Of a stretch of DNA of 47,743 nucleotides, positions 18,093 to 21,430 are shown one piece after another. Source of the stretch: a virus; IMG/VR virus record IMGVR_UViG_3300035168_000051, positions 1 to 47,743 of that record; one strand, given 5' to 3'. The position numbers were made by a program, and so were the translations under genes. Under the pieces are notes generated by a model. The model did not search any database. It had not been told where the DNA came from and saw only the letters and a program-made list of their open reading frames with translations. The stretch's first letter is position 1, and each line of letters starts with the position of its first letter.

Positions 18093-18410
18093 ATGCCAAA
18101 AGCACCGCCGCTTCATCGTCCGCTTGGGTGGAAGCGAAGAGCGCCGTGGGTTCATGCTCCTGGGAAGAAGAGCGCGGCGAGTCGAGGTTATGGAACCGAT
18201 TGGGGAAAGCTCAGGGCTGAAGTTCTTGAGGCCGAGCCGTGGTGTCGAGAACATGCCAAGCACGGCGACAGAGTTGCTGCAACGCATGTGGATCACATCG
18301 TTCCGAAGTGTGATGGCGGGACGGATCGGAAATCGAATCTGCAGCCGCTTTGTTACCGCTGTCACATGAGCAAGAGCGGGCGTGAAGGCGCCGAAGCGCG
18401 CCGCAAATGA
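18093..18410 (+). CDS. HNH endonuclease upstream of terminase
   Basis: 105 residues. HNH core in the second half: RAEVLEAEPWCREH, THVDHIVPKCDGGTDR, NLQPLCYRCHMSK. This is the compact HNH type encoded next to terminase genes in HK97-like and other cos phages, where it acts with the terminase in DNA packaging and cos cleavage (shown for HK97 gp74). The ribosome site is poor. Followed 16 bp later by the small terminase gene. Confidence 0.85.
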   Translation: MPKAPPLHRPLGWKRRAPWVHAPGKKSAASRGYGTDWGKLRAEVLEAEPWCREHAKHGDRVAATHVDHIVPKCDGGTDRKSNLQPLCYRCHMSKSGREGAEARRK

Positions 18411-18425: not shown

Positions 18426-18935
18426 GTGGCAAGACCGAGAAAGCCGGATCACCTGAAGCTGGTGTCCGGGACGGCGCAACCATGCCGGATGAATCCGAAG
18501 GCTCCGAAGCCGAAGAGAGAACGTCCTTCTCCGCCGGCACATTTGAGCGACCGTGGTAAGGCCGGATGGGTCGAGGCTGTTCTGATTGCCGATCGCATGG
18601 GTGTGCTGACGGAAGCGGACGGGCTGGCGCTTGAGGCGCTGTCTGAGGCGATTGCGGATATTCGGGCGGCGCGTGCTTCTCTGGCGAGGCCGCTGGTGCT
18701 TGAGGTCGAAGGCGAGCGGCGAGAAGTCGCCGCCGAGAACGAGCGCTACTATTGGACCTTCGGCAAGGGCGGACCGATGCGGCGCGCGCGTCCGGAGATC
18801 GCGGATATCTCGGACGCCGATCGCCGGCTTGCGATGTGGTTCGCCAAGTTCGGCATGACGCCGGCCGACCGGTCGCGGGTCTCTGGCGAGCCAGAGAAAG
18901 AGGCGTCGGTTTTTGACGAGATGTTCGGAAATTAA
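18426..18935 (+). CDS. terS: Terminase small subunit (P27 family)
   Basis: 169 residues, GTG start. Begins MARPRKPDHLKLVSGTAQPC, the usual P27-family start, then LSDRGKAGWVEAVLIADRMG, VLTEADGLALEALSEAIADI and a C-terminus ending in SVFDEMFGN. It recognises packaging sites and recruits the large subunit. TAATG overlap with the large-subunit gene. Confidence 0.9.
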   Translation: MARPRKPDHLKLVSGTAQPCRMNPKAPKPKRERPSPPAHLSDRGKAGWVEAVLIADRMGVLTEADGLALEALSEAIADIRAARASLARPLVLEVEGERREVAAENERYYWTFGKGGPMRRARPEIADISDADRRLAMWFAKFGMTPADRSRVSGEPEKEASVFDEMFGN

Positions 18936-21430
18936 TGACGAAGAAGCCTCCTGAGCCGTGGGTGCTTTCGCCGTTCACGGCCGCGGCACATCAATATGCA
19001 CTTGACCTGATTTCCGGCAAGCGTCCAGCCTGCCAACTGACGATCAAAGCGGCGCGACGCTATCTCGACGATCTGGCAAAATCGGAACGCGCGGACTGGC
19101 CGTTCCGCTACGACATTGCCGCGGCGACGAAGGCGTGTCGCTTCATCGAAGCGATGGTCCACACGAAAGGCAAGTGGTCAGCTAAGCGTGAGACGCTGAA
19201 ACTCGAGCCGTGGCAGGCGTTCTTTGTCTGCAATGTGTTTGGGTGGCTGAATAAGCTGACTGGCAAGCGGCGCTTCCGCCAAGCCTATCTTCGGGTGCCA
19301 CGCAAAAACGGCAAGTCGGCGCTGGCCGCAGCGATCGGCCTCTACATGCTGACCGCTGATGGCGAGGCCGGGGCCGAGGTTTATTCAGGAGCCTCTTCCG
19401 AGAAACAAGCATGGGAAGTATTCGGCCCGGCGCGTATCATGGCGATGCGAAATGGCCCCTTCAAGGCGAAGGCGAAGATAACCACAAACGCCTCGAACCT
19501 TCACGTCATGGGGACCGGTTCTAAGTTCGAACCTGTCATCGGGAAGCCAGGCGATGGGGCATCGCCGAGCTGCGCGATCATCGACGAGTATCATGAGCAC
19601 CAGACTGATGATCTAGTCGACACGATGATCACCGGCATGGGAGCGCGCGAGCAGCCGCTAATGCTCATCATCACGACGGCAGGATCGAGCACGGGCGGGC
19701 CGTGCTACGCATACGACAAGGACGCGCAAGCGGTTCTCTCCGGCACGATCGAGCGCGACGAACTATTCGTTCTGATTTATGGGATTGACAATCAACAGAG
19801 AGTAGTTGAATACCAGTCGTATCGCGCAGTTGAACGATTGGACTACGAATGCCGAAGGGTCAATGCCCAAATCACCCAGATCGACCAATCCGTTCGAGAG
19901 GCGTTTGCCTGCTGTGTTACACGCGGGATCGTCGTTCCGACGCGACCAGGCGATGCAAAAACCACCCAGACCGGCCGATCAGAAACGCAAAACTCGGACT
20001 ATGCGGGTCTTGCTACGAGCAATACCTGCTCGACAGAGACCCGGATTATAAGCGCCGGTCAATTGAGAAGCGCCAAAAGTGGGCTGAAAAAAATAGAGAC
20101 CGCTGCCGCGCGGCACAAACAAGATGGAGAAGTAAGCCAGAGACGAAGCGCGCCCGCAAAAACTACCAACTCGGCTACGACCACGGAATCTCAGTTTCAG
20201 AGTATGAGAGATTATGTTCTGAGCGTAAAGGAGTGTGTGACATCTGCGGACGTGGAGACAGGGTCCTTTACGTCGATCATTGCCACTCTTCTGGAGATAT
20301 CAGAGGGCTACTGTGTCAAAAGTGCAACTCAGGGATCGGTCTTCTCGGAGATACTGAAGAGTCTATACGCAAGGCACTCGCATATTTTGAGCGCCGAAAG
20401 GTGCAGACTAGACGGGAGCAGTTTTTATGTGACTCTCCCGCCTGACGACTGGTCATCGGAAGCATCGCTCGTCAAGGCAAACCCGAACTATGATGTTTCG
20501 GTTTCTGCGGAGTTTCTAAAGGCCCGTCTTGCAGAAGCGATTTCATCGCCGCGCAAAGCCGCGATCTACAAGACGAAGCATCTCGACGAATGGGTATCGG
20601 CCGGCTCTCCCTACTTCGATTCATTGTTGTGGGAAGGTCTCAAAGAGGAATTCGACCCGGCCGCTTTGGCTGCCGACGGTTGGGATTGCTACATCGGTCT
20701 CGATCTCGCGTCGAAGAAAGATTTGACGGCGATTGTGCTGTTGCTGACACGGTTCACCGAAGACGGAAGTCGAGAGTTCCGCGTCGTGTCTCGCTTCTAT
20801 GTTCCAGAAGCGCAGGCCGAAGACCCGAAAGCCATCTTCTACCGCGAATGGGATGAGAAGGGATATCTCAACCTGACTGGCGGCAACGTCATTGATGAGC
20901 CGCTGATCGAGTCTGACATTGTCGAGTTGGCGAACCTCGTTGGTTGTCTCGATATCGGATACGACCCGTGGGGATCGCGTTCTCTGTGCCAGCGTCTCCA
21001 AGACGAACATGGATTGACGGTTACAGAAGTTCCGCAAACGACGAAGAACTTGTCGGAGCCGATGAAGACGCTTGATGCAGCGATTTCATCCGGCCGCATC
21101 CGGCATGATGGGAACCCCGTCATGGCGTGGTGCATCGGCAATGTCTGCGCCAAGGAAGACAAGAACGAAAACGTCTTCCCATACAAAGAGCGCCCAGAAG
21201 CAAAGATCGACGGAGCTGCCGCGCTGTTGAACGCAATGGCGCGGGCATTGGCCGCTGAGGTTGAAACAACTTCCGTGTTCGACCTGTTGGCGAGAAAAGC
21301 CAACGCCAATCACGCGCAATCAAACGACGATGACGAGGCAATCCTCGCGAATCCTGCGCATCCGCGATGGAAAGAAGCGCGCGAAAGGTGGGAACGCAAG
21401 CACATGTCGACGGACGATATCTGGGGATGA
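18935..21430 (+). CDS. terL: Terminase large subunit with a 216-codon in-frame insert
   Basis: 831 residues. ATPase: RKNGKS Walker A (123-128), IIDEYHEH Walker B (about 213-220), LIITTAGS motif III. RNase H-like nuclease: GLDLASKKD (about 588), IGYDPWG, and KIDGAAALL near the end. HK97-type TerL are about 550-620 residues. Between IYGID (ending at 19789) and PPDDWSSEASLVKANPNY (from 20438), where the family reads straight through the linker, 648 bp are inserted. The insert is open in the terminase frame but has no terminase-like sequence, and it carries a homing endonuclease in another frame. Whether the insert is removed, tolerated as an exposed linker, or abolishes function cannot be told from sequence. 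Confidence 0.88.
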   Translation: MTKKPPEPWVLSPFTAAAHQYALDLISGKRPACQLTIKAARRYLDDLAKSERADWPFRYDIAAATKACRFIEAMVHTKGKWSAKRETLKLEPWQAFFVCNVFGWLNKLTGKRRFRQAYLRVPRKNGKSALAAAIGLYMLTADGEAGAEVYSGASSEKQAWEVFGPARIMAMRNGPFKAKAKITTNASNLHVMGTGSKFEPVIGKPGDGASPSCAIIDEYHEHQTDDLVDTMITGMGAREQPLMLIITTAGSSTGGPCYAYDKDAQAVLSGTIERDELFVLIYGIDNQQRVVEYQSYRAVERLDYECRRVNAQITQIDQSVREAFACCVTRGIVVPTRPGDAKTTQTGRSETQNSDYAGLATSNTCSTETRIISAGQLRSAKSGLKKIETAAARHKQDGEVSQRRSAPAKTTNSATTTESQFQSMRDYVLSVKECVTSADVETGSFTSIIATLLEISEGYCVKSATQGSVFSEILKSLYARHSHILSAERCRLDGSSFYVTLPPDDWSSEASLVKANPNYDVSVSAEFLKARLAEAISSPRKAAIYKTKHLDEWVSAGSPYFDSLLWEGLKEEFDPAALAADGWDCYIGLDLASKKDLTAIVLLLTRFTEDGSREFRVVSRFYVPEAQAEDPKAIFYREWDEKGYLNLTGGNVIDEPLIESDIVELANLVGCLDIGYDPWGSRSLCQRLQDEHGLTVTEVPQTTKNLSEPMKTLDAAISSGRIRHDGNPVMAWCIGNVCAKEDKNENVFPYKERPEAKIDGAAALLNAMARALAAEVETTSVFDLLARKANANHAQSNDDDEAILANPAHPRWKEARERWERKHMSTDDIWG
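19790..20437 (+). mobile_element. 648-bp homing-endonuclease insertion within terL
   Basis: Bounded by the interruption of terminase similarity. Length is a multiple of three and there is no stop in the terminase frame for 216 codons. Local GC is visibly lower than in flanking terL. About 59 bp precede the endonuclease start; its last two codons and TGA lie in terL sequence after the insert. Too little room remains for a group I intron core, and no intein junction residues (N-terminal Cys/Ser with C-terminal His-Asn) are present. Exact ends could shift by a few bases. Confidence 0.65.
19849..20445 (+). CDS. Endonuclease VII-type HNH homing endonuclease nested in terL
   Basis: 198 residues in the +2 frame relative to terL. 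Two N-terminal Cys-His modules of repeated form (CPNHPDRPIRSRGVCLLC and CKNHPDRPIR ... LCGSC), a basic linker (KRQKWAEKNRDRCRAAQTRW), then the recombination endonuclease VII fold: CDICGRGDRVLYVDHCH, RGLLCQKCNSGIGLLGD. The His-Asn catalytic residues are present. Such genes spread by cutting uninterrupted copies of their target, here terL. Ribosome site is weak (GGA 8 bases before ATG). Confidence 0.85.
   Translation: MPKGQCPNHPDRPIRSRGVCLLCYTRDRRSDATRRCKNHPDRPIRNAKLGLCGSCYEQYLLDRDPDYKRRSIEKRQKWAEKNRDRCRAAQTRWRSKPETKRARKNYQLGYDHGISVSEYERLCSERKGVCDICGRGDRVLYVDHCHSSGDIRGLLCQKCNSGIGLLGDTEESIRKALAYFERRKVQTRREQFLCDSPA

Follow-up and report, generated by a model that had tools for sequence, protein, structure and literature searches.

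The DNA analysed here (the window, that is the whole stretch of 47,743 bases, of virus origin) carries a terL gene that reads as one open frame and is flanked by long intact ORFs (Table 1). In profile searches, its product matches TerL_ATPase (PF03354) and TerL_nuclease (PF20441), and its best solved relative, by sequence as well as by fold, is the HK97 TerL (6z6d). The catalytic residues of TerL are invariant in an alignment that includes nine carriers of the arrangement described below. No relative was retrieved when the genome contigs were searched with the C-terminal part of terL. Note that, elsewhere in the window, positions 532–1356 hold a long run of short repeats (SIGDGA) that is readable in several frames and on both strands and looks like a left-handed beta-helix protein.

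Table 1. Features of the terL locus (window coordinates)
Feature	Position	Strand	Remarks
Separate HNH gene	18093–18407		PF01844; just upstream of terS, like HK97-type packaging modules
terL, single open frame	18935–21430	+	831 codons, insert included; from the ORF list
TerL ATPase part	18935–19789	+	Residues 1–285; C-terminal end LIYGID; delimited by tblastn against relatives
Insert	19790–20437	+	648 bp; 216 terL-frame codons, zero stops
Insert leader	19790–19848	+	59 nt 5' of the nested start codon; read in the terL frame alone
Nested Endonuclease VII-family gene	19849–20445	+	198 codons plus stop, in another frame than terL; PF02945, PHROG endonuclease VII
TerL nuclease part	20438–21430	+	Begins PPDDW; shares bases with the 3' tip of the nested gene

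An insert interrupts terL at a conserved site

The similarity to other terminases ends at 19789 and restarts at 20438 without the loss of any host residue. The initial annotation had described this break as 648 bp long, a multiple of three, and alignment with uninterrupted relatives bears it out: among the 163 fetched terL relatives, i.e. those having both terL parts, the two parts are separated by 0 nt in 157 and by 3–36 nt in the other six, versus 648 nt in the window. The span first proposed, 19790–20445, runs to the stop codon that closes the nested gene; the insert stops short of this, near 20437, with an uncertainty of a few residues, as the search turned up no close empty relative. The insertion site is conserved in terL and falls in the linker hairpin that joins the ATPase and nuclease domains, where the coding context is Y-T-I-D / x-x-D-D-W. 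The length of this site is naturally variable: two empty TerLs (L152, 5820–5852; L086, 4817–4846) hold 10–11 additional residues, which resemble both ends of the element (e.g. LEAYEWHGVKVP) and are possibly scars of an in-frame loss or an ancestral hairpin.

The ORF nested in the insert scores 63.3 bits against PF02945 (curated cut-off, 23.6), and the PHROG assignment agrees, in line with the initial annotation, which had recognized an out-of-frame gene for an endonuclease VII-type enzyme of homing type; that anatomy holds, and homing itself is considered below with the distribution of the element. The nested protein comprises two Cys/His knuckle repeats followed by an intact HNH core (VDHCH...CNSGIG), the catalytic DH, H and N residues of which are invariant among the nested relatives. 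A GGA lying six bases 5' of the nested ATG is a weak Shine-Dalgarno-like match; tested over the nested gene starts, such signals are weak and mostly no higher than background, and weak upstream signals have likewise been remarked for the ShiLan element discussed below (PMC11855218). A set of 385 alphaproteobacterial genomes yielded three weak Endo VII matches, and the terL-frame product of the insert gave zero matches when compared with phages.

The terL frame is kept open in nine of ten carriers

It had been pointed out that the terL frame has no stop over the 216 codons of the insert. This is correct, but for one insert it is weak evidence, because the frame would be open by chance with a probability of about 0.08 if the synonymous codons of the ORF are permuted and of about 0.5 under terL codon usage. 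Taken alone, these values would suit a frame left open by accident, after a recent insertion into a dead phage or through an assembly error. By scanning viral contigs with Endo VII alignments, we recruited nine additional distinct viral contigs in which, despite the divergence of terL, an Endo VII gene sits at the identical terL site. The ten contigs with this arrangement come from different samples. Their inserts measure 648 (window), 648, 549, 555, 627, 645, 636, 675, 543 and 663 bp, all divisible by three, the frame relation between the nested gene and terL is identical in all ten, and the terL frame is open through the insert in nine (the window and eight of its nine relatives). Codon permutation predicts about 20 stops over the ten inserts, and one is observed. 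Multiplying the nine single open-frame probabilities gives about 1e-11, and among about 155 Endo VII loci elsewhere, 13 lack a stop in the corresponding frame along the matched stretch (Fisher p about 2e-8), although the ten members are kin, so that these probabilities overstate their independence. Once the relatives are counted, the open frame is thus far beyond chance, and it is the recurrence that carries the case. The same arrangement in ten contigs from different samples, the retention of the TerL and HNH catalytic residues and the long intact ORFs around terL in the window make decay or an assembly artefact exceedingly unlikely; likewise, dead packaging, one of three outcomes initially envisaged, does not agree with the preservation of the TerL catalytic residues in ten lineages.

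The sole terL-frame stop among the carriers is a TAG in L266 (1629–1631), which could equally reflect a sequence error, suppression or a split terL. A split gene deserves consideration for the other carriers as well: terL could be expressed in pieces, with separate synthesis of the nuclease half from a start codon inside terL, close to where the nested gene ends, much as in Aeh1, where mobE, likewise an intron-less endonuclease gene within an essential coding sequence, divides nrdA into two polypeptides (PMC2988022). The L266 stop would divide the protein in this manner, a GTG at 20429 of the window, in the terL frame, falls within the last bases of the nested gene, and split phage genes can function (PMC2988022). 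However, this GTG is not kept among the carriers and, in contrast to Aeh1 nrdA, the terL frame stays open, L266 excepted; an open frame in nine of ten carriers would be needless if the protein were made in two parts. We therefore give a split terL little credence.

No intron, intein or bypass signature is detectable

Self-splicing introns and inteins are the usual vehicles of endonuclease genes in such positions, and the initial annotation had judged the extra sequence too short for a group I core and seen no intein signature. A covariance search with Rfam, relaxed to E values up to 10, detected no intron and no group I catalytic core in the window insert, whereas the positive control, an Endo VII-bearing group I intron in the terL of another phage, was recovered at E 3e-11 from a stretch of equal length; the empty intron of rV5-like phages scores 84 bits in the Rfam search. 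The inserts of the nine relatives gave no match at the gathering threshold, and no consensus RNA fold emerged among the ten inserts (z about -1). An unrecognised intron, either a degenerate group I intron or a new ribozyme, could nevertheless overlap the endonuclease gene and leave the mRNA: the terL group I intron of rV5-like phages does carry Endo VII genes, and RNA structure could cause the silent-site conservation, which is higher in the inserts than in other Endo VII genes (see below). Besides the failure of these searches, such an intron would have only the 59-nt leader as room 5' of the nested gene, and it would not need the open host frame that is kept in nine of ten carriers. We consider it very improbable.

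Removal at the protein level would, by contrast, account for the open frame, and a true intein with an out-of-frame Endo VII gene is known in another TerL. The latter is a Terminase_6C TerL, of another family (L242, 1471–3900; Endo VII gene, 2382–2969), with canonical intein ends (CMVGD at the start, VVSHN followed by T at the end) and an endonuclease encoded out of frame inside. The carriers, however, match no intein family, and their junctions are unfitting: the first residues of the inserts vary (N, T, T, T, S, S, I, S, E and L), no insert ends with Asn followed by Cys, Ser or Thr, and the next residue is usually Pro. The statement that no intein signature is present thus holds for the family matches and for the junction residues, and excision of the insert by an intein-like or protease process that escaped recognition is a very unlikely explanation.

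Ribosomes might also hop over the insert in the manner of T4 gene 60, which would leave it silent in TerL. The known bypass in T4 gene 60 spans 50 nt. The 648 nt of the insert are far above this length, inspection of the junctions shows no matching take-off and landing codons that would restore PPDDW, and an open frame would be unnecessary; we rejected bypass on the basis of the junctions and of the latter point, and regard it as hardly conceivable. An unusual removal or bypass had been the second of the outcomes proposed initially, and neither RNA removal nor ribosomal bypass predicts a conserved open host frame.

The element is scattered over the TerL tree

To place the carriers, a TerL tree was built without the insert (43 rows, quick method, nine carriers, L268 being left out). 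The carriers do not form a single TerL clade (AU p 0.0009). The carrier label changes eight times on this tree, at least six of these changes being forced by well supported branches, and shuffled labels need as many; such counts do not separate gains from losses. For nine of the ten carriers, comparison of the ATPase parts places an empty TerL nearest. For example, L181 reaches 64% (N-terminal part) and 72% (C-terminal part) with empty TerLs versus 60% and 47% with the nearest carrier. As far as the tree can tell, the element cannot have arisen once and then only been inherited vertically. Because the carriers are not one clade, the element appears to move, and from this distribution, patchy at one fixed terL site, we infer that it homes.

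Possible constraint on the insert beyond the absence of stops

In the arrangement found here, the third bases of the nested gene are the second bases of the terL codons. The excess identity at fourfold sites is 0.13–0.24 in the nested genes; other Endo VII genes, matched for protein identity, reach 0.006–0.03. The difference persists when stop-prone codons are omitted, which hints that something beyond stop avoidance may constrain the insert. Selection on the amino acids read in the terL frame was considered as the cause and dropped: we do not claim it because a comparable relative excess is seen at the first bases of leucine codons, which are silent in either frame, and because the changes are no more conservative than expected. 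That the element is dual-coding, its second, selected product being a tolerated or useful stalk on the packaging motor, is accordingly a doubtful, if conceivable, extension of the reading preferred below.

TerL is probably translated straight through the insert

Altogether, the most probable explanation is that a mobile endonuclease gene, with neither intron nor intein, occupies one site in terL, that TerL is translated through the insert as one longer chain and that this message also yields the endonuclease; we hold this view with good, though not full, confidence. An intron or a ribosomal hop needs no open host frame, and the conserved open frame therefore argues for read-through. Of the three outcomes first envisaged, a terminase that tolerates a read-through insert is, judging from the sequences, the best supported, given the conserved open frame and the intact catalytic residues.

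In the proposed mechanism, the Endo VII-type enzyme would presumably nick or cut an insert-free terL, and repair would then copy the element into the cut gene. What would allow the element to persist in an essential gene is a length divisible by three together with an open reading in the terL frame. TerL would emerge as a single chain of about 831 residues, insert included, and would still work with an insert of 180–225 residues, predicted to be largely disordered, on the surface hairpin that links its ATPase and nuclease domains. For the endonuclease, ribosomes would initiate internally on the terL mRNA, in the other frame. In an AlphaFold model computed from an alignment of 56 TerLs, both TerL domains have pLDDT values above 90, whereas the core of the insert falls mostly below 50 and sits on an extended hairpin with two flanking helices, which score near 80.

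Comparison with known elements

The initial annotation implied that this arrangement lacked precedent, which does not hold. Out-of-frame HNH insertions with no intron or intein were described in 2025 in phage methylases: the ShiLan element (Arsenault, Gosselin and Gogarten, 2025) consists of an HNH gene lying out of frame within a phage methylase gene that is dispensable; the host frame is open and no intron or intein was found (PMC11855218). This ShiLan domain belongs to the hidden out-of-frame HNH insertion elements of actinophage DNA methylases (PMC11855218, PMC9957025). The two elements share an out-of-frame endonuclease gene, an open host frame, the lack of a detectable intron or intein, a patchy distribution and a host-frame product predicted to be disordered; even the frame relation of ShiLan gp65 to its host gene is that of the terL element. 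Their nucleases, in contrast, show no similarity (HNH_3 versus Endonuclease_7), so that the arrangement is shared and the lineage is not. The ShiLan host gene is dispensable, whereas the element described here lies in terL, at one site in ten diverged carriers, and was submitted to a stop-codon test. What is new relative to ShiLan is thus the unrelated nuclease family, the essential host gene, the recurrence across lineages and the measured preservation of the frame. The literature searched, which left most subscription journals outside, contained no paper on such an element in a terminase.

Other systems resemble the terL element in part. The rV5-like phages (magaca, empty; nomo, filled) also have an Endo VII-family gene in terL, but there it lies within a group I intron that the search detects, occupies a different position of terL and is accompanied by host-frame stops. 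The HK97-type HNH proteins are also HNH nucleases encoded beside packaging genes, but by separate upstream genes. T4 gp49 is a Holliday-junction resolvase encoded at its own locus. By profile, the nested protein shares the Endo VII core with this T4 endonuclease VII (1e7d, 1en7), and differs from it by the Cys/His knuckles ahead of the core and by its location in terL.

Out-of-frame nested Endo VII genes were also seen in other host genes, namely helicase-methylase genes (L257, 286–3177; L223, 2715–4655; L294, 1609–6078) and an RNA ligase gene (PF09414; L321, 170–1303). The helicase-methylase cases resemble Pacc40 gp60 (PMC11855218); L294 appears to carry an intein too, and its nested gene is in the other relative frame.

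Implications

At least two nuclease families, unrelated to each other, occur in this arrangement. It indicates a third route, besides introns and inteins, by which an endonuclease gene can reside inside an essential gene, namely by keeping the host frame readable. The location in terL makes the arrangement open to test, since a packaging motor that carries a loop of about 200 residues must either function or fail. There is also a warning for annotation: a gene finder sees such a terL as uninterrupted, and the nested gene is readily overlooked. Finally, if the element did prove to be dual-coding, a selfish endonuclease gene would have evolved a second protein that keeps an essential host enzyme working.
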